Part shown: piece after piece, positions 1 to 13,908 of the stretch
Layout: each line of letters opens with the position of its first letter
Numbering within the stretch: position 1 is the first letter of the stretch
Assembly: GCA_913056455.1 (NCBI GenBank)
Contig: CAJXMJ010000001.1
Span: 1,240,001-1,304,000, forward strand
From: an uncultured Fodinibius sp.
GTDB lineage: Bacteria; Bacteroidota; Rhodothermia; Balneolales; Balneolaceae
DNA: 64,000 nt
Reading direction: 5' to 3'
Notes under the pieces: generated by a model
Told to the model about the DNA's origin: nothing
Databases searched by the model: none
What the model saw: the letters and a program-made list of their open reading frames with translations, nothing else
Made by a program: the position numbers and the translations under genes

Positions 1-535
1 TTATGTTAAATCCTTCTCCGCCCCTCTTTTTTGTGATAATATTGACAACTCCTCCAATAGCTGAAGATCCATAAAGCGTACTGTGCGATCCGCGGACAAT
101 TTCTATCCGCTTTATTCCAGTAAGTGAAAGCTCCGAAAGGTCAATGGAATTATTATTGGTAGAGGGATCACTGATTCGAACGCCATCAATCAATACAACA
201 GAATGATTGGAATTAGCATTACGGATAAATCCCTGCTGTAATGAACCCGGGGTTTGCCCCGCTCCTATCATGTGCACACTCTGCTGTTGCGCCAATAACT
301 CACTGACGTTTGTATAAACAGCATTCTGAATTTCATCCTGTGAAATAACAGTCACATTGCGCCCCACCGATTGTGGCGACTGTTCGTACTTGCTGGCACT
401 AATAATAATTTCGTCCAGCTCATAGATTGTGGTATCGGCTTCTACATTATGCTGTTGAGCCATTGTTGGCGTGGTAATCCAAAGAAAAGCCATCAAGGCA
501 AATAGCCCTGAGGATAATCGTTTAATAGTGTTCAT
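1..535 (-). CDS. btuB: TonB-dependent vitamin B12 receptor, N-terminal part (runs off left edge)
   Basis: Outer-membrane TonB-dependent receptor, very probably for cobalamin. Only the first 178 residues lie in the window. They show a signal peptide (Met-Asn-Thr-Ile-Lys-Arg, a hydrophobic stretch, cleavage near TMAQ-Q) and then a plug domain with the typical order: a YELDEIIISASK TonB-box-like segment, a GAGQTPGS region, VVLIDGVRISD, RIEIVRGSHSTLYGSSAIGG and VVNIITKK. The start is the ATG at 535; an in-frame stop 12 nt upstream rules out a longer protein. The ribosome-binding site is weak. The upstream region carries a cobalamin riboswitch and the preceding genes are btuFCD, so B12 is the expected substrate. 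The family call is seen in sequence; the substrate is inferred from the riboswitch and neighbours. Confidence 0.93.
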   Translation of the reverse strand, partial: MNTIKRLSSGLFALMAFLWITTPTMAQQHNVEADTTIYELDEIIISASKYEQSPQSVGRNVTVISQDEIQNAVYTNVSELLAQQQSVHMIGAGQTPGSLQQGFIRNANSNHSVVLIDGVRISDPSTNNNSIDLSELSLTGIKRIEIVRGSHSTLYGSSAIGGVVNIITKKRGGEGFNI

Positions 536-564
536 AATTAAGTATTAAGGTTACAAATGATGAT

Positions 565-636
565 TTATTCATCACTCGTACCTTTGGGTATAAAACTTGG
601 AAGGTATAAATACGCTCTGATAGCCAGAAACGACAT
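565..636 (-). CDS. Possible 23-codon leader ORF between riboswitch and btuB
   Basis: A short ORF (MSFLAIRAYLYLP..., stop TAA) begins 15 nt after the GGGAG motif in the loop of the riboswitch expression-platform hairpin; a nearer purine-rich GAAGAG ends 3 nt before the ATG. In the sister riboswitch the same hairpin sits 13 nt before the btuF start. By analogy, the regulated ribosome-binding site here would serve this ORF, with btuB starting 29 nt after its stop. A small hairpin (TGATGA and TCATCA arms, 558-574) spans the stop codon. Whether it is translated is inference; no homology is recognised. Confidence 0.3.
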   Translation of the reverse strand: MSFLAIRAYLYLPSFIPKGTSDE

Positions 637-645
637 TTACTCTTC

Positions 646-663
646 GCTTTTCTCCCGAAAGCT
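646..663 (-). promoter_or_regulatory. Expression-platform hairpin (P13-like) of the btuB riboswitch
   Basis: On the minus strand, arms AGCTTT and AAAGC(G) enclose the loop CGGGAGA, which contains a Shine-Dalgarno-like GGGAG. The loop can pair through CGGG with CCCG of the aptamer L5 loop (790-795), as in translational cobalamin riboswitches. The same hairpin recurs upstream of btuF. Confidence 0.75.
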
Positions 664-677
664 ACGAATGCTGTGCG

Positions 678-845
678 TTGGCAGGTCTTCTGGCTTGTTC
701 CGCTTTTGACAACCTTCCCGTCCCATCCCGGTACAACCGAGAGAAACAGTGGTTCAAGAAAGATCAAAAGGTTATGGAACTCACAGCATCGGGGAATGCT
801 CCGGATTTTCCCGAAAATTATCGAGAGCACCGGATTCCCTTTTAA
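678..845 (-). promoter_or_regulatory. Cobalamin riboswitch aptamer upstream of btuB
   Basis: Reading the minus strand, the order is GGGAATCCGGTGC, a GGGAAAATCCGGAGC segment, the P5 hairpin GCAT-TCCCCG-ATGC, a CCACTG box and finally the diagnostic B12 box AGCCAGAAGACCTGCC at 695-680. This is the classical adenosylcobalamin aptamer order. It lies 3' of btuD and 5' of btuB, so it most likely represses btuB when cobalamin is plentiful. The 402-base region between btuB and btuD is otherwise occupied only by the leader described separately. Confidence 0.94.
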
Positions 846-4223: not shown

Positions 4224-4242
4224 AGCTTTTCTCCCGAAAGCT
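4224..4242 (-). promoter_or_regulatory. Expression-platform hairpin (P13-like) of the btuF riboswitch
   Basis: Minus-strand arms AGCTTT and AAAGCT form a perfect 6-bp stem around the loop CGGGAGA. The GGGAG in the loop is the only good ribosome-binding site for btuF. CGGG can pair with CCCG in the L5 loop of the aptamer (4364-4369), so cobalamin binding would hide the site. It is the same hairpin as at 646-663. Confidence 0.82.
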
Positions 4243-4259
4243 TGTTTCCGTCATCAATA

Positions 4260-4420
4260 CCGGCAGGTCTTCTGGCTTACTCCACTTTCGACAACCTTCC
4301 CGCCCCGATCATTATCAGGACAGTGGTTTATGAAGGATCAAAAGCTGTTGGAGCTTACAGCAGCGGGGACTGCTCCGGACTTTCCCATAAGTATTTAAGA
4401 GCACCGGATTCCCATTTTAA
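4260..4420 (-). promoter_or_regulatory. Cobalamin riboswitch aptamer upstream of btuFCD
   Basis: Minus strand order: GGGAATCCGGTGC, GGGAAAGTCCGGAGC, P5 hairpin GCAG-TCCCCG-CTGC, a CCACTG box and the B12 box AGCCAGAAGACCTGCC (4277-4262). Compared with the btuB riboswitch, the P5 stem differs by a compensatory change (GCAT/ATGC against GCAG/CTGC) while the loop is unchanged, which supports the fold. The remaining 4421-4631 region up to the divergent amidase gene must hold both divergent promoters, but I see no clear promoter motif. Confidence 0.95.
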
Positions 4421-6476: not shown

Positions 6477-7532
6477 ATGAAGACGTTATCAAATTGGGTT
6501 GTTTTAGGAGTACTGTTTTGCCTGTCAATTATGGCCAGTTCTTGTGGTTCAGAATCACAGTCAAAAAATGTAAGTGATGAGGATTCCACTTCTGCTATTC
6601 CTGTTGAAATTGCCAAGGCTACGAACGGCGATATTTCAGCATATTACTCGAGCACAGCTACACTTGAAGCTGAAAATAAATCTACGGTGGTATCCAAAGT
6701 CCGGGGAATGGTAACAGAAATCAGGGTCGAGGAAGGCGATTTTGTAAATGCAAATGAAGTCCTTGCCCAATTGGAAGATGAACAGTTGGAATTAGAAGCA
6801 CAGCGGGCCAAGGCTACTATGGACCGCCTCTTGAATGAACTGGATAGAAAGGAAGAATTGTTTAAGAAAAATCTTATTAGCGCCCAGGAATTTGAAAACG
6901 CTAAATATGAGTATCAAGCCCAAAAATCAGAATATGAACTTGCCCAATTAAAAATAAAGAACTCAAAAATCCGAGCCCCGATCAGCGGAGTTGTTTCGGA
7001 TCGACTCATCAAGGTTGGCAATATGATTAACACCGATCAGGAAGTCTTTGAGGTAACCGATTTTGATCCCATACTGGCCGTTCTTAAAGTCCCGGAGCAT
7101 GAAATGTCAAAAATACAAAAAGGTCAGCAAGCCCTGTTGCAGGTGGATGCTATCAAAGATGATACTTTTCAAGGAAAGGTACTTCGCGTAAGCCCGACAG
7201 TGAATCCACAAACGGGCACTTTTGAAGTCACTGTTTCTATCCGGGATGAATCCAAGCAGTTAACACCTGGGATGTTTGGTCGCGTGCGTATTGTTTACGA
7301 CACCCATCAAAACGCTCTTATGATTCCCAAGAATGCCGTTATCGAAGAGGACGGAATGAGCAGTGTGTATGTTATCAAAAATAGCATGGCTTACCGCCAA
7401 AATATAAATACCGGATACTCTAATGGAGATAATATTGAAGTACTCGAGGGGCTGGCTCCATCCGACACGGTGGTAACCATAGGACAAAGCAGTCTGCAAG
7501 ACAGCGCTTTGGTCGAAATTGTATCCTTATAA
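6477..7532 (+). CDS. RND efflux periplasmic adaptor (membrane fusion lipoprotein)
   Basis: Periplasmic adaptor of a tripartite efflux pump, 351 residues, HlyD/AcrA family. It has a lipoprotein signal with lipobox ASSC (Cys about 23), the first lipoyl half (KVRGMVTEIRVEEGDFV), an alpha-helical hairpin of roughly residues 105-160, the second lipoyl half (KIRAPISGVVSDRL) and beta-barrel and membrane-proximal domains. The stop is 37 nt before the first of two RND pump genes, so the three form an operon. No outer-membrane TolC-type gene follows; the channel must be encoded elsewhere. Substrate cannot be predicted. Family assignment is firm. Confidence 0.93.
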   Translation: MKTLSNWVVLGVLFCLSIMASSCGSESQSKNVSDEDSTSAIPVEIAKATNGDISAYYSSTATLEAENKSTVVSKVRGMVTEIRVEEGDFVNANEVLAQLEDEQLELEAQRAKATMDRLLNELDRKEELFKKNLISAQEFENAKYEYQAQKSEYELAQLKIKNSKIRAPISGVVSDRLIKVGNMINTDQEVFEVTDFDPILAVLKVPEHEMSKIQKGQQALLQVDAIKDDTFQGKVLRVSPTVNPQTGTFEVTVSIRDESKQLTPGMFGRVRIVYDTHQNALMIPKNAVIEEDGMSSVYVIKNSMAYRQNINTGYSNGDNIEVLEGLAPSDTVVTIGQSSLQDSALVEIVSL

Positions 7533-7569
7533 CAAACAGCAGCTTATCATTATCTAAAAGGGATTCACT

Positions 7570-10500
7570 ATGAAATTGATTGACTTTTCCATCAGACGCA
7601 AGGTAACCATTGCAATGTTTACCATCGGCATTATCCTTTTTGGGATGGTTTCTCTCAGCCGCTTAAATATTAACCTGTTGCCGGAACTCAGCTATCCTAC
7701 CCTCACCGTTCGAACTGATTTTGAAGGAGCTGCTCCTGCTGAAGTCGAAAACCTGGTGAGCAAACCTATTGAGGAAGCTCTGGGAGTTGTAAAGAATGTA
7801 CAGCAGGTCCGCTCTATTTCTCGATCCGGCCAGTCTGATGTTACCCTGGAATTTGCTTGGGGTACCGACATGGATTTCGCCAGTATTGATGTTCGCGAAA
7901 AGCTCGATGCCCTACAGCTTCCGTTAGAAGTAGATCGCCCGGTTATTTTACGCTTTGACCCCTCCCTGGATCCCATTATGCGGTATGCTTTTTACATAAA
8001 AGATAAAAGCCCGGACCAGCCCCAAAACGTCAATTATGCCAGTTATCAAAAAGAGGAGTCAAAATCACAAATCAGTAAACTCAAGCAGCTGCGGCGTTAT
8101 GCTGATGAACAGATCAAGAAGGATCTTCAATCTGCATTGGGGGTAGCCTCTATCAAAATAAGTGGTGGCCTGGAAGAAGAAATCGAAGTGGCTGTCAATC
8201 AGGATCGTATGTCACACCTTGGCATTTCGATTGATCAAATTTCCCAAGTATTGGGAGCTGAAAATGTAAATCTCTCTGGAGGTCGTTTAGAGGAAGGCAC
8301 ACAACAATATTTGGTGCGGACGCTCAATCAGTTTCAATCTGTCGAGGATATCAAAGAGGTAGTAATCAGCAGTCAGAACGGCAATCCCGTCTATTTAAAG
8401 GATCTTGCTGAAATATCCCAAAGCTATAAAGAGCGAGAAGCTATAACCCGCCTTAATGGTCAGGAGGCCGTCGAAATAGCTATTTACAAAGAAGGCGATG
8501 CCAATACGGTGAATGTAGCCAAAAATGTAGAGGCACAGATGGATAATCTCTCTGAACGCCTTCCTGAAGGTATGGCAATGACAAAGGTATTTGATCAATC
8601 TACATTTATTTCTTCAGCAGTGAGCGAAGTCGTTAATGCAGGAATAATTGGCGGCATTTTAGCCATTATTATTCTATATCTGTTTCTTCGAAATCTTTGG
8701 GCAACCGTAATTATTTCCCTGTCAATACCCGTATCGGTCATCGCCACTTTCAATCTGATGTACGGCAATGATATTACCCTTAATATCATGTCATTGGGCG
8801 GGATTGCACTGGGCATTGGCTTACTGGTTGACAACTCCATTGTGGTGCTTGAAAATATTGCGCGTCACCGCGAGATGGGCAAAAATCCCCTAAAAGCCGC
8901 TAGTGATGGCGCGGGAGAAGTAGGTATGGCCGTGGTTGCTTCTACCCTCACAACCATTGCTGTATTCTTTCCGCTTGTCTTTGTGCATGGCATTGCCGGA
9001 CAACTTTTCCGTGATCAGGCGCTGACAGTAACGTTCTCCTTACTTGCTTCTTTGGTCGTAGCAATCACCTTGATCCCAATGCTTTCATCGTTGGCAGGAC
9101 GCGAAAAATCAGAAATTAAAAAACCAGAGCTGAAAAAACCTAAAACAAAAGTAGGTAGCTGGATGCGAACCGCCCGGATCTTCATTTTTGAAACCATTCC
9201 AAGTTATATCATAAAAGGCGGTTCTAAAGTTATCAGCGTTATCAGTAAGGGAGCCATGTTCGTTTTGAATCCTATGTTAAATGCTTTTGAAAAATGGTTT
9301 GACTCATTGGAAGATAAATATCCCACTGTTTTGCGATGGTCATTACGCCACCGTTTTGCAGTAATTGCCTTTGCATTTTTGAGTCTTATGGGCTCACTTA
9401 TGCTAGTACCACAGCTGGGTATGGAACTTATACCCTCCCTTTCGCAAGGGGAATTTAACGTAGAGTTTAATCTTCCTCCGGGAACTCCTATCGAACAGAC
9501 CGATCGGGCCCTGCAGAAGGTTCAGCAAGCGGCCGGTGACATTGATCCCATTCTAACAACCTTCGCCGTCGCGGGGACCGGTAATCAGATGGATGCCAAT
9601 CCCAATCAAGGTGGGGAAAACTGGGGTGAACTGAATGTTACGTTAGCAAGCGGTGCGGGACGAGCCCTGGAAGAAAGCACGATGGATGAGCTACGCACTG
9701 ATTTGCAGCGTATACCCGGCTTAAACTACAAGTTTTCGCGACCAGCCCTGTTTACGTTTAAAACTCCGGTCGAGGTCGAAATATCGGGTTATAACCTGGA
9801 AGACCTGAAAAAGGTTAGTGATAACATTCTCCAAAAAATGTCATCCAATGGACGCTTTGCAGACGTAAAGTCAACAATGGAGCAAGGCAGTCCTGAGATT
9901 CAAATTACTTTTGATCGCCCCAAGGCGGCATCACTTGGCTTGCAAGTCCATGAAGTTGCTGATGTGGTCGTCAGTAAAGTGCGAGGAGATGTCGCAACAC
10001 GATATTCGTGGAGAGATCAAAAAATTGATGTTCTTGTCCGTGCTAAAAAACAGGATCGCTCGTCAATCGAGGATATCCAAAATATTATCATCAATCCCAA
10101 CAGTGAGTCACCCGTTCCGCTATCAAGTATTGCAAATGTACAGGTTGATACTGGGCCGAGCGAAATTCGAAGAGCAGCACAACAGCGCGTTGCAATTGTA
10201 TCTGCAAATTTAAATTACGGCGACCTTGCTACTGCTGCGGATGAAATTCGCACTATCATCGATGAAACAACAATTCCAATGGGCATACAAGCACAAATAA
10301 CCGGTCAAAACGAGGAAATGGCAGATTCATTCCGTTCACTCCTTTTTGCTCTGTCACTTGCAGTATTTCTGGTCTACCTGGTAATGGCTTCACAGTTTGA
10401 GTCGCTGCTCCACCCCTTTATCATCCTGTTTACCATTCCCCTGGCATTGGTTGGCGCCATCCTTGGTTTGTGGATTACCGGATCCACGATAAGCGTTGTC

Positions 10501-10857
10501 GTATTTATCGGGTTAATTCTGTTGGCCGGTATTGTGGTAAATAATGCTATTGTACTTATTGATCTTATTAACCAATACCGCGAGCGGGGAATGAACAAAA
10601 TCAAGGCCATCCTTGAGGGAGGTAAATCGCGACTTCGCCCTATCATTATGACAACACTGACAACCACGCTCGGACTGTTACCGTTAGCTATAGGATTTGG
10701 GGATGGTGCTGAATTACGAGCACCGATGGCAATCACAGTTATTGCAGGACTCATCATCTCGACCCTGCTTACCCTTATTGTGATCCCCACGATGTACGCT
10801 ATTATGGATCGCAAAGTGTATAAGAAACAACCGGCAATAGAACAATCAGATAACTAA
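7570..10857 (+). CDS. RND-family efflux pump, first of tandem pair
   Basis: Inner-membrane proton-driven exporter of the AcrB/hydrophobe-efflux group, 1095 residues with the usual twelve membrane segments and two large periplasmic loops. The N terminus (FSIRRKVTIAMFTIGIILFG) and the first-loop start (LLPELSYPTLTV) are typical. In TM4 the charge-relay motif reads LLVDNSIVVLEN, so the AcrB Asp-Asp pair is Asp-Asn here. A Lys/Pro-rich insert (KKPELKKPKTK, about residue 520) precedes an amphipathic stretch between the two halves and makes the protein about 60 residues longer than AcrB. The small gap to the next RND gene and the shared adaptor suggest co-expression, possibly a mixed trimer like MdtB-MdtC. 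Substrate unknown. Confidence 0.94.
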   Translation: MKLIDFSIRRKVTIAMFTIGIILFGMVSLSRLNINLLPELSYPTLTVRTDFEGAAPAEVENLVSKPIEEALGVVKNVQQVRSISRSGQSDVTLEFAWGTDMDFASIDVREKLDALQLPLEVDRPVILRFDPSLDPIMRYAFYIKDKSPDQPQNVNYASYQKEESKSQISKLKQLRRYADEQIKKDLQSALGVASIKISGGLEEEIEVAVNQDRMSHLGISIDQISQVLGAENVNLSGGRLEEGTQQYLVRTLNQFQSVEDIKEVVISSQNGNPVYLKDLAEISQSYKEREAITRLNGQEAVEIAIYKEGDANTVNVAKNVEAQMDNLSERLPEGMAMTKVFDQSTFISSAVSEVVNAGIIGGILAIIILYLFLRNLWATVIISLSIPVSVIATFNLMYGNDITLNIMSLGGIALGIGLLVDNSIVVLENIARHREMGKNPLKAASDGAGEVGMAVVASTLTTIAVFFPLVFVHGIAGQLFRDQALTVTFSLLASLVVAITLIPMLSSLAGREKSEIKKPELKKPKTKVGSWMRTARIFIFETIPSYIIKGGSKVISVISKGAMFVLNPMLNAFEKWFDSLEDKYPTVLRWSLRHRFAVIAFAFLSLMGSLMLVPQLGMELIPSLSQGEFNVEFNLPPGTPIEQTDRALQKVQQAAGDIDPILTTFAVAGTGNQMDANPNQGGENWGELNVTLASGAGRALEESTMDELRTDLQRIPGLNYKFSRPALFTFKTPVEVEISGYNLEDLKKVSDNILQKMSSNGRFADVKSTMEQGSPEIQITFDRPKAASLGLQVHEVADVVVSKVRGDVATRYSWRDQKIDVLVRAKKQDRSSIEDIQNIIINPNSESPVPLSSIANVQVDTGPSEIRRAAQQRVAIVSANLNYGDLATAADEIRTIIDETTIPMGIQAQITGQNEEMADSFRSLLFALSLAVFLVYLVMASQFESLLHPFIILFTIPLALVGAILGLWITGSTISVVVFIGLILLAGIVVNNAIVLIDLINQYRERGMNKIKAILEGGKSRLRPIIMTTLTTTLGLLPLAIGFGDGAELRAPMAITVIAGLIISTLLTLIVIPTMYAIMDRKVYKKQPAIEQSDN

Positions 10858-10875
10858 AACGGAGGAACTGCTGTT

Positions 10876-13800
10876 ATGAAATTTACTGATCTTTCGTTAA
10901 GACGGCCGGTAACTACAATGATGGTTTTTATCAGCTTCGTGATCATCGGGATCATTGCCAGTCGTATGGTACCGCTGGAATATTTTCCGGATATTTCCTT
11001 TCCCGGAGCATATATTAGTGTCCCCTATCAAAATTCGACACCGGAAGAAGTGGATCGCAATATTACACGCCCCATTGAAGAGGCTATTGCCACTATTAGC
11101 GGCATTGAACGCATTAGCTCAACCTCCAGTGAAAACCAGGCCGGGATCTTCGTACAGTTTAAAATGGGATCAGATATAAGCCTGAAAGCAATGGAGTTAA
11201 AAGAAAAAATAGATGGCATCCGTAATCAGCTTCCGGATGATTTAGAACGTTTTACCATCAATAAATTTTCTGCGCAGGATAATCCGATGATGAACCTGCG
11301 CATTTCCAGTGAGCGAGACCTTTCCAACGCCTATGATCTGCTAAATCGTAACCTTAAACAGCGCATTGAACGCATTCAGGGAGTAGCAAAAGTAGATCTG
11401 TATGGTGTTGAGAAAAAACAGATTAGAATTGAACTGATCCCCGAGCGACTCAAATCCCACAATATAAATCTTAATGAGCTGGCCCAAACATTGCGGCAAA
11501 GCAATTTTTCGGTAACAGCCGGAAAAATTGAAGACGCCGGAAAACGATATCTGGTACGTCCAACTGGAGAAATTACAGAACCGGCTGAATTCGCCAATCT
11601 TGTTGTCGGCCCCGACAATCTAAGGCTAAGAGATATTGCAACCGTTGGTTATGGAAGCCCGGAACGGGACTATGGTCGTCATCTTGATCAAAAATATGCC
11701 ATTGGACTGGATGTATTTAAAGAGTCCGGTGCCAATACCGTGGAGGTTGGCGATCGCGTAATAGCAGAAATTGATGAAGTGAATAAACTGCCCGAGATGC
11801 GTGGGATCAACATCTTCGAAATGCACAATCAGGCAACGGGAATCATTAGTTCGCTTACCGAACTATTTAAAGCAGGACTATTAGGTGCACTATTCTCTAT
11901 CATCATTCTCTACCTGTTTTTGCGGCGTATCAGTACAACGCTAATTGTAGCACTGGCTGTCCCTTTTTCATTGATTGTTACCCTAGGCCTGCTCTATTTC
12001 ATGGAACTATCGCTCAATATCCTTTCCATGATGGGGTTAATGCTCGCGGTGGGTATGCTGGTCGATAATGCTGTTGTGGTAACCGAAAACATCCATCGCA
12101 ACCAAAATATGATGGATGATAAAATCGAGGCTGTAAAACGTGGCGTAAAACAGGTAGGAATGGCTGTTACCGCAGGAACATTAACAACAATAATTGTATT
12201 CCTGCCCAATATTATCAGTGAAGATTCGATGATTGCAATTCAGCTTTATCATGTTGCTATCACCATTATTTTGGCACTCACGGCCTCCCTCTTAATTTCA
12301 CTTACTGTTATTCCTCTGTTAACCTCCAAAATTTCGCCTCCTGAAAAAAAAGAACAAACCGATTGGGTTGATCGTCTGCAAAATTGGTATGGTGGTATGT
12401 TAAGCTGGCTACTCAAGCGCAGATACCTATCAGTAGCATTAATTTTAGGTACTCTTTTAAGCGTTGCTATACCAATGAATGCGGTAAATGTAGAGATGTT
12501 TGGAGGCTCAGAATCGCGGGAACTTAGATTGCATTACCATCTTAATGATACCTATACCCTTGAGACAGTCGAGGAATCAGTAACTCGTGTTGAGGAGTAT
12601 CTCTATGCCAATAAAGAAGAACTCGAAATTGATGCCGTGTACTCGTATTTCGAAACTGGCTCCGCAACTTCTACCATTCTTTTAACAGATGAGGACGACG
12701 CTCAAAAAGATGTTACCCTCATCAAAGAAGAAATAGAAGAACAAATGCCAAAACTTGCAATTGGCGAACCATCTTTTGAATACCAAGACCGGACCGGCGG
12801 TGAGCAACTGCGCGTTTTTGTTATTGGAGAATCTACAGAAGTACTGACAGATCTTGCTGAGGAAGTTGAGCGACGCCTAAAAGATATTCCGGGTTTAGCC
12901 GATGTACGATCAGAAGCCGAAACCGGCACCGAAGAGGTTCAGGTTCAGGTAAATCGAGAACGAGCACGTAATATGGGCGTTTCATCCCAACAAGTGGCCC
13001 GCCTGGTTTCCAACTCAATGCGGGGAATGAATTTACGGCGGGTCCGTAGTGAGCACGGGGAAACAGATGTCGTTCTGGCTATTCAGGAATCTGATCGAGA
13101 GACTATTGAGGATCTAATGCAGTTACCGGTTAGTGTTGGGAATGGAGAATCTGTGCAACTTGCATCTCTGGCCGATTACAAAATGGATCGCGGACCCCGA
13201 ACCATACAACGAGAAGATCGGCAAACATCGCTGGGAATTACAATCAACCTTGACGGTATCACAATGGACAAGGCCCAAGAGCGGATCTTCCCTGTTTTAA
13301 ATCAAATCAATTATCCTTCCGGCTACGGTTGGAGCAAAGGTCGAAGCTTTGAACGTGATCAAGAAGCTATGGACGAAATGATGGTCAATATTCTTTTAGC
13401 GATGTTTTTAATCTATCTGGTGATGGCATCACTCTTCGAATCAGTTCTTTTTCCCTCAAGTATTATCACCTCCATCTTTTTTGGAATTGTCGGGGTCTTC
13501 TGGTTCTTCTTTATTACCGGAACAACGTTCTCGTTTATGGCAATGATCGGCATTCTCATTCTAATGGGTATCGTGGTTAACAATGGAATTGTACTAATAG
13601 ATCATATTCATCAACTTCGTGAAATGGGACTATCCAGATTTGAAGCGATCATCAAGGGCTGTAAAGATCGTATGCGTCCCATTTTGATGACTGCTGGAAC
13701 AACGGTACTTGGGTTAGTTCCTCTCTGCTTTGGAACAACCCAAATTGGCGGTGATGGCCCACCCTATTTCCCAATGGCACGGGCTATCGTCGGCGGGCTC

Positions 13801-13908
13801 ACCTTTTCTACCGTTGTTACTCTTGTTATTTTACCGGCCATATATCTTATACTTGATGATGTAAAATTATGGGGTAATAGAATTTGGCGAAAAGGACGTA
13901 GCAACTAA
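10876..13908 (+). CDS. RND-family efflux pump, second of tandem pair
   Basis: Second inner-membrane RND exporter, 1010 residues. It starts FTDLSLRRPVTTMMVFIS, has LEYFPDISFPGAYISVPY in the first periplasmic loop, TM4 motif MLVDNAVVVTEN and TM10-11 motif GIVVNNGIVLIDHIHQLRE. A GGAGGA ribosome-binding site lies 9-10 nt before the ATG, only 18 nt after the first pump, so translation is linked. It is clearly diverged from its neighbour, so this is an old paralogue pair, not a recent duplication. Each half is full length and both keep an Asp-Asn TM4 motif. It is likely part of the same efflux complex as the adaptor upstream. Confidence 0.93.
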   Translation: MKFTDLSLRRPVTTMMVFISFVIIGIIASRMVPLEYFPDISFPGAYISVPYQNSTPEEVDRNITRPIEEAIATISGIERISSTSSENQAGIFVQFKMGSDISLKAMELKEKIDGIRNQLPDDLERFTINKFSAQDNPMMNLRISSERDLSNAYDLLNRNLKQRIERIQGVAKVDLYGVEKKQIRIELIPERLKSHNINLNELAQTLRQSNFSVTAGKIEDAGKRYLVRPTGEITEPAEFANLVVGPDNLRLRDIATVGYGSPERDYGRHLDQKYAIGLDVFKESGANTVEVGDRVIAEIDEVNKLPEMRGINIFEMHNQATGIISSLTELFKAGLLGALFSIIILYLFLRRISTTLIVALAVPFSLIVTLGLLYFMELSLNILSMMGLMLAVGMLVDNAVVVTENIHRNQNMMDDKIEAVKRGVKQVGMAVTAGTLTTIIVFLPNIISEDSMIAIQLYHVAITIILALTASLLISLTVIPLLTSKISPPEKKEQTDWVDRLQNWYGGMLSWLLKRRYLSVALILGTLLSVAIPMNAVNVEMFGGSESRELRLHYHLNDTYTLETVEESVTRVEEYLYANKEELEIDAVYSYFETGSATSTILLTDEDDAQKDVTLIKEEIEEQMPKLAIGEPSFEYQDRTGGEQLRVFVIGESTEVLTDLAEEVERRLKDIPGLADVRSEAETGTEEVQVQVNRERARNMGVSSQQVARLVSNSMRGMNLRRVRSEHGETDVVLAIQESDRETIEDLMQLPVSVGNGESVQLASLADYKMDRGPRTIQREDRQTSLGITINLDGITMDKAQERIFPVLNQINYPSGYGWSKGRSFERDQEAMDEMMVNILLAMFLIYLVMASLFESVLFPSSIITSIFFGIVGVFWFFFITGTTFSFMAMIGILILMGIVVNNGIVLIDHIHQLREMGLSRFEAIIKGCKDRMRPILMTAGTTVLGLVPLCFGTTQIGGDGPPYFPMARAIVGGLTFSTVVTLVILPAIYLILDDVKLWGNRIWRKGRSN

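Follow-up and report, generated by a model that had tools for sequence, protein, structure and literature searches.

Two cobalamin riboswitches of one B12 transport locus share a kissing-loop contact and probably differ in their output

Two cobalamin riboswitches, RS1 and RS2, were analyzed in a B12 transport locus of an uncultured Fodinibius sp.; the DNA studied is a stretch of 64,000 nucleotides, here called the window (contig CAJXMJ010000001.1, positions 1,240,001 to 1,304,000). We propose, with a probability of roughly 0.62, that both riboswitches use one shared sensor contact, the pairing of loops L5 and L13, and that this contact leads to two outputs: RS2 would be a direct OFF switch and RS1 a relay. 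Two output designs would then stand on one common sensor within a single transport locus. The principle is known; the leader of RS1 is conserved and represents a variant of the platform for which no description was found in the open literature searched. The original prediction was a correct sighting of known riboswitches combined with one wrong generalization, namely that both carry an identical translational expression platform. The distance from GGGAG in L13 to the AUG is 13 nt in RS2 and 116 nt in RS1, and the 17-nt P13/L13 hairpin is the sole identical part of the two platforms. The shared hairpin is a shared contact, not a shared output.

Both aptamers were matched over their full length in a covariance-model search with RF00174, the check proposed with the prediction. 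Their scores (Table 1) compare with a gathering score of 31.5 bits, and RS1 and RS2 were the only matches both in the window and in the 3.28-Mb assembly. The search gives no position for P13, because the model ends at the 3' side of P1 and both matches stop before P13. Outside the Rfam model, L5-L13 complementarity and a P13 hairpin after P1 are present in both, and both precede B12 transport genes. RS1 and RS2 are real cobalamin riboswitches by these features, and they presumably bind cobalamin. The interval originally indicated, 4224-4420, loses the 5' end of the RS2 aptamer (the match extends to 4463) and omits RS1.

Table 1. Features of the B12 locus in window coordinates
Feature	Position	Strand	Remarks
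RS2 cobalamin riboswitch aptamer	4463-4245	-	RF00174, 106.5 bits, full model 1-189
RS2 P5/L5, GCAG-TCCCCG-CTGC	4373-4360	-	read from sequence; same P5 in 15 riboswitches
RS2 P13/L13, GCTTT-CGGGAGA-AAAGC	4241-4225	-	loop CGGGAGA 4236-4230; SD-like GGGAG 4235-4231; 13-nt spacer to ATG
btuF-like periplasmic binding protein	4217-3033	-	Pfam PF01497, 1.5e-18
btuC-like permease	3036-1957	-	PF01032, 1.9e-75; best NCBIfam match BtuC, below its cut-off
btuD-like ATPase	1960-938	-	PF00005, 1.1e-28; NCBIfam corrinoid ABC ATPase second to FecE, all below cut-off
RS1 cobalamin riboswitch aptamer	896-663	-	RF00174, 104.6 bits, full model
RS1 P5/L5, GCAT-TCCCCG-ATGC	799-786	-	read from sequence; same P5 in 6 riboswitches
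RS1 anti-P13 helix, 5' arm CATTCGTAGCTTTCGGG	670-654	-	P13 5' arm plus GGG of L13
RS1 P13/L13, GCTTT-CGGGAGA-AAAGC	662-646	-	loop CGGGAGA 657-651; invariant in 6/6 homologues
RS1 hairpin H2 in leader	640-606	-	contains ATG 636-634; ATG in 4/6, ATA in 2/6 relatives
RS1 relay strand CCCAAAGGTACGAGTG, anti-P13 helix 3' arm	588-573	-	15 pairs in 6/6 genomes
RS1 candidate output hairpin (H4ext)	583-548	-	ends 12 nt before btuB ATG
btuB, TonB-dependent B12 receptor	535-2	-	first 178 codons in window; 733 aa in full

RS2 stands before btuF-btuC-btuD, and RS1 occupies the gap between btuD and btuB. The btuB fragment carries a Plug domain (PF07715) and finds its best match in the B12 receptor family TIGR01779 (4.5e-33, under the whole-protein cut-off on a fragment). 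Two lineages of receptor, about 25-28% identical to each other, were seen in the btuB slot of the paired locus among L033-L043; both occur in a single genus, and each is accompanied by a riboswitch type of its own, a possible case of cassette exchange. The B12 locus is adjoined on the plus strand by an RND-type efflux-like set (6477-13908) of one membrane-fusion-like protein and two large transporters, judged from sequence only.

A cobalamin riboswitch was present in at least 118 of the 128 genomes of the order, and 152 distinct riboswitches among the order matches listed were compared, two of them from Bacteroidales/Bacteroidetes MAGs. L5 contained [N]CCCG in 150 riboswitches by pattern, and the remaining two have ACCCG in the sequence by eye. 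The hairpin loop L13 contained CGGG in 113 and CGGAGG in 39, which makes 152/152, a figure that depends on the motif, because the script sought CGG[GA] inside a hairpin; the 39 CGGAGG riboswitches retain just three contiguous CGG/CCG pairs with L5. The stem P5 itself has long been known. Its inner two pairs were TG/CA in 87, TA/TA in 42, AG/CT in 15, and AT/AT in 6 riboswitches (n = 150), and since they vary as paired combinations, the covariation of P5 is genuine. What had been predicted from RS1 and RS2 alone, a P5 stem changing from GCAT/ATGC to GCAG/CTGC around a constant L5 (UCCCCG), and the same downstream hairpin with CGGG of L13 facing CCCG of L5, was read from the sequence in both and recurs in their relatives. 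Kissing of L5 and L13 is experimentally established, and in the available part of one study the functional bases of one riboswitch are identified as CCG and CGG (PMC10653944).

The L13 loop was furthermore examined for its distance to the gene. Among the 55 CGGGAG loops of the survey, the automatically called start lay more than 60 nt away in 26, at 21-60 nt in 13, and at 15-20 nt in 12; an upstream ATG had been called in three, all of them RS2, and no start in one. A GGGAG loop alone is no evidence of a ribosome-binding site in these riboswitches; the G-rich L13 is explained by pairing with L5. Two easily confused roles of L13 are separated in this way, the G-rich loop being kept for the kiss with L5 and not per se a ribosome-binding site. 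A further riboswitch type was noticed in 9 of the 12 genus members (L003-L005, L007-L011, and L016) and in another genus (L006). There, P13 is followed by a hairpin and T-run which by eye resemble an intrinsic terminator; this type of the nine genus members was not found in the window's genome.

RS2 is most likely a direct translational OFF switch of the known type, because the spacing is kept, an added helix lies near the AUG, and a Shine-Dalgarno (SD) sequence is usable in this organism. All 15 riboswitches with RS2-type P5 precede btuF homologues (14 plus L036), and in 15/15 a spacer of 12-14 nt separates GGG(A/U)G from the btuF ATG. Spacing was measured to the first ATG after L13; automatic calls had taken an upstream ATG in L020, L037, L041, and L043. 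The SD-like motif in L13 thus stands at a fixed short distance from the AUG of the gene, as GGGAG in 14 loops and GGGTG in one (G018). In two relatives (L039, L123) the P13 stem is altered yet still paired, and in 13 of the 15 predicted folds an additional helix, 2-4 bp long, ends at the AUG or within a few nucleotides of it. SD-like motifs were found before 8 of 31 window genes, btuF included, as compared to 0/31 control stretches, the genes being ATG-start ORFs picked from 45; therefore, SD sequences can work here, but they are a minority choice. A 16S tail with anti-SD was found in three of the six relatives searched, the one inspected lying in a 16S-like context; in the window's own assembly, it was sought and not found. 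Upon binding of B12, the L5-L13 kiss would lock P13 and thereby hide the SD-like loop together with the approach to the start codon of btuF. The kissing loop with a ribosome-binding site in L13, originally predicted for both riboswitches, hence fits RS2 well but lacks support in RS1 with respect to btuB.

In RS1, 116 nt separate the end of GGGAG from the btuB ATG at 535, and this distance is 105-117 nt in six relatives, so L13 offers no SD at a fixed short distance from the AUG of the gene. A leader of about 140 nt is conserved in six genomes from three genera and precedes a btuB homologue in 6/6. In the two most distant members, identity to the window was 0.74 and 0.73 for the leader, 0.67 and 0.55 for the aptamer, and 0.53 and 0.60 for the first 150 nt of btuB. 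Leader and aptamer were about equally conserved in three close relatives (0.94/0.96, 0.96/0.94, and 0.85/0.79). The leader folds far better than shuffled sequences (z-score -4.19). A lax Rfam search of window positions 500-700 revealed no second RNA family; apart from a partial RF00174 tail, it returned two plus-strand matches with scores far under the gathering threshold.

RS1 model R1 matched 6/128 genomes of the order, 6/244 of the class, and 5/395 of a phylum sample (E ≤ 0.001, strict filters). Model R2 at E ≤ 0.1, also with strict filters, added three weak matches (G055, G249, and G498). They were rejected as RS1: of the three, G249 (L159) alone is situated at a cobalamin riboswitch, and this one belongs to the start-codon design described below. 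A scan with a 19-base pattern gave six contigs, three of which were RS1 loci already seen. One further contig, from Algoriphagus, is without riboswitch; the other two, from Bacteroidales/Bacteroidetes MAGs, share the P13 segment and were rejected, with no match to R1 and at most 15 bits with R2. In these MAGs (L152, L154), the RS1 P13 segment TTCGGGAGAAAAGCGAAGA is followed by an ATG about 30-40 nt downstream. One RS1-type leader (L148, in G034) belongs to a riboswitch that is absent among the RF00174 matches listed; therefore, other weak members may be missing from the RF00174 survey as well.

The RS1 leader contains one strand, the relay strand, which is complementary to the 5' arm of P13 and also to an output partner near the AUG. 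With the P13 arm it can form an anti-P13 helix of 15 bp, with one G.G mismatch and one bulged C, between strands 65 nt apart. This helix excludes P13 and likewise excludes the output hairpin, whose end lies 11-14 nt upstream of the btuB ATG in the six relatives. The aptamers, the hairpins, their spacing, and the conservation of both alternative pairings can be read directly from the DNA. Without B12, the P13 5' arm and GGG of L13 would pair with the strand 65 nt downstream, and the anti-P13 helix would keep the relay strand from forming a hairpin beside the btuB AUG. With B12, the kiss would lock P13 and free the relay strand, so that the hairpin AGGTACGARTGATGA/TCATCATTTGTAACCT could form, close the stretch immediately before the AUG, and probably lower the translation of btuB. 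This direction of regulation is assumed, because the downstream gene is btuB.

We read RS1 as a relay because the mutually exclusive pairings are kept and the two forced states are close in energy. The anti-P13 duplex was stronger than 500/500 shuffles in all six RS1 members; as in all shuffle counts given here, related sequences were treated as separate. In a control over the 152 riboswitches, for which the arm was shortened by one base and 200 shuffles were used, at most two shuffles were as strong in 5/6 RS1 as compared to 3/146 others. Pairing was kept in about 99% of cells in RS1 versus 34-52% in slid controls, and where the relay strand varies (A/G, at two positions), pairing with U persists in both alternatives. 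Folds forced into the anti-P13 helix and into P13 plus hairpin were 0-2.2 kcal/mol apart in 6/6, and 0.5-3.5 kcal/mol apart when 45 nt of btuB were added; folding covered the leader, with these 45 nt in one run, and was done without aptamer and kiss. The unconstrained minimum-energy folds speak against the relay, since the full anti-P13 helix appeared only in G037; in the five other members, GGG of L13 pairs with CCC and the output hairpin is kept. A different output state, P13 together with a CATTCGTA/TACGAGTG helix, was dropped because its forced folds lay 5.6-10.4 kcal/mol above P13 alone.

Conservation of this kind could also reflect common ancestry of a btuB cassette whose leader has no alternative folding. 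Just six RS1 members were found, their receptors are 54-88% identical to that of the window, and receptors in the same slot of other genus members are only about 25-28% identical where matches are detectable. Two-sided compensatory changes, whose absence also weighs against the relay, were found for neither alternative among the six relatives; 13 of the 15 anti-P13 pairs are invariant, and a column-shuffle control was uninformative. Against ancestry, the leader is better conserved than the coding sequence in the two distant members, and the conserved positions are those of both arms and of both alternative partners; we regard this explanation as quite improbable. It is likewise unlikely, though less markedly so, that RS1 acts mainly on transcription or on RNA stability, through access of Rho or RNase, with hairpins which merely organize the leader. 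A long leader would suit such a mode of action, and so would the start region: unpaired fractions showed the difference expected between the forced states only at -30 to -13 (0.49-0.72 versus 0.17-0.28), whereas at -12 to +12 they were about equal (0.54-0.69 versus 0.59-0.79), the supposed OFF state being the more open one in 3/6, which likewise speaks against the relay. Terminators speak against it. The RS1 leader of the window has no terminator-like site, and no T-run of five or more follows the last hairpin in the six aligned leaders. The original prediction was right in this respect for both riboswitches: no intrinsic terminator, that is a GC hairpin with T-run before the start codon, is predicted between aptamer and start codon of RS1 or RS2, and the terminator-like sites predicted on the minus strand lie inside the RS2 aptamer (4361-4344) or within coding sequence.

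Alternatively, both riboswitches may be direct, the L13 ribosome-binding site of RS1 serving a short upstream ORF which controls btuB. An ATG at 636, 15 nt after GGGAG, opens a frame of 23 codons in the window, and the aligned triplet is ATG in G000, G019, G018, and G034, with frames of 14-26 codons and nearly identical peptides in G000 and G019. A riboswitch-controlled translated leader upstream of ppe2 in Mycobacterium tuberculosis, described in the available part of PMC11260477, provides a precedent. The picture for a conserved upstream ORF of the ppe2 type is mixed, the triplet being ATG in four relatives and ATA in G014 and G037, and the G018 peptide has 14 codons and is out of register; for these reasons, the upstream ORF was not taken as the main reading. 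Furthermore, the bases of the ATG belong to hairpin H2, whose pairing is kept. We consider control by an upstream ORF quite unlikely, and the relay remains the preferred reading of RS1.

A sister design was found among the 39 riboswitches with CGGAGG in L13 (e.g., L013), 37 of which stand before btuB homologues. In most of them, a strand CGAAAGCTCAT has two possible partners, the P13 arm GGCTTTCG and the start ATGAGC; the sequences CGAAAGCT and GCTCAT overlap and serve alternative pairings, with the 5' arm of P13 or with ATGAGC at the start of btuB. The start codon, and not an SD, would be captured in this way, because the second codon AGC takes part. Of 112 order riboswitches that could be tested, 34 showed this start-codon relay, all with CGGAGG in L13, versus 15/2240 middle-shuffled runs. 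The phylum sample gave 2/65 (L159 and L255, both of family f26) versus 5/1300 shuffled, where L159, known from the R2 search, does not count as unbiased. The test was applicable to 112/150 riboswitches in the order and 65/98 in the phylum; the rest lacked a called hairpin or start, or the start was too close. The phylum set comprised 105 loci among the matches listed, 98 of them parsed by pattern, and consisted of 80 regions chosen for spread, 22 automatic ones, L159, L152, and L154. None of the start-codon relay riboswitches lies within the window, and RS1 itself gave 0/6, because its output hairpin leaves the AUG uncovered.

It may be, and we hold the odds to be about even, that B12 riboswitches of the order whose start lies far from L13 use a relay strand with two fates, capture of the P13 5' arm or closure of the translation start, the start region rather than an SD being the regulated element. 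RS1 would represent one version and GCTCAT/ATGAGC another, each version traveling with its btuB lineage, and the design would be shared by two riboswitches from a single further family of the phylum. If true, the relay strand would suit bacteria which often lack SD sequences. In any case, RS1 and its sister design offer concrete, testable schemes for the repression of genes without a Shine-Dalgarno sequence by a very common riboswitch.

No paper on a cobalamin riboswitch of Balneolaceae was found in the open literature searched, and the titles and abstracts listed there on the kissing loop and L13, btuB of B. thetaiotaomicron, Bacteroidetes, the antisequestor, and start codon and P13 contain no description of RS1-type leaders. 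The available parts of PMC11162775, PMC10653944, PMC11260477, and PMC9600662 served for comparison. A close parallel described there is the btuB riboswitch of Escherichia coli, in which, as proposed for RS1, an AdoCbl aptamer with kissing loop brings about translational OFF control, and an exchange between anti-SD and anti-anti-SD strands frees or hides the start region (PMC11162775, PMC10653944). Unlike in the E. coli system as presented in these parts, the P13 arm of RS1 has its partner 65 nt further downstream, and the output hairpin is located 11-14 nt upstream of an AUG without obvious SD. In the corrinoid riboswitch of Priestia megaterium metE, according to the corresponding sections of PMC10653944, CCG in L5 likewise kisses CGG in L13 and P13 competes with an alternative helix, but the platform ends in a terminator, which RS1 and RS2 lack. 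The ppe2 riboswitch of M. tuberculosis resembles RS1 in a proposed L5-L13 contact and in a short frame after the riboswitch SD, as reported in the accessible text of PMC11260477; the RS1 frame differs in having its ATG in just four of six relatives. A further parallel is the start-codon relay of the order itself: as proposed for RS1, the start region is closed by a downstream strand unless that strand pairs with the 5' arm of P13, but there L13 is CGGAGG and the strand covers the AUG (ATGAGC) itself.
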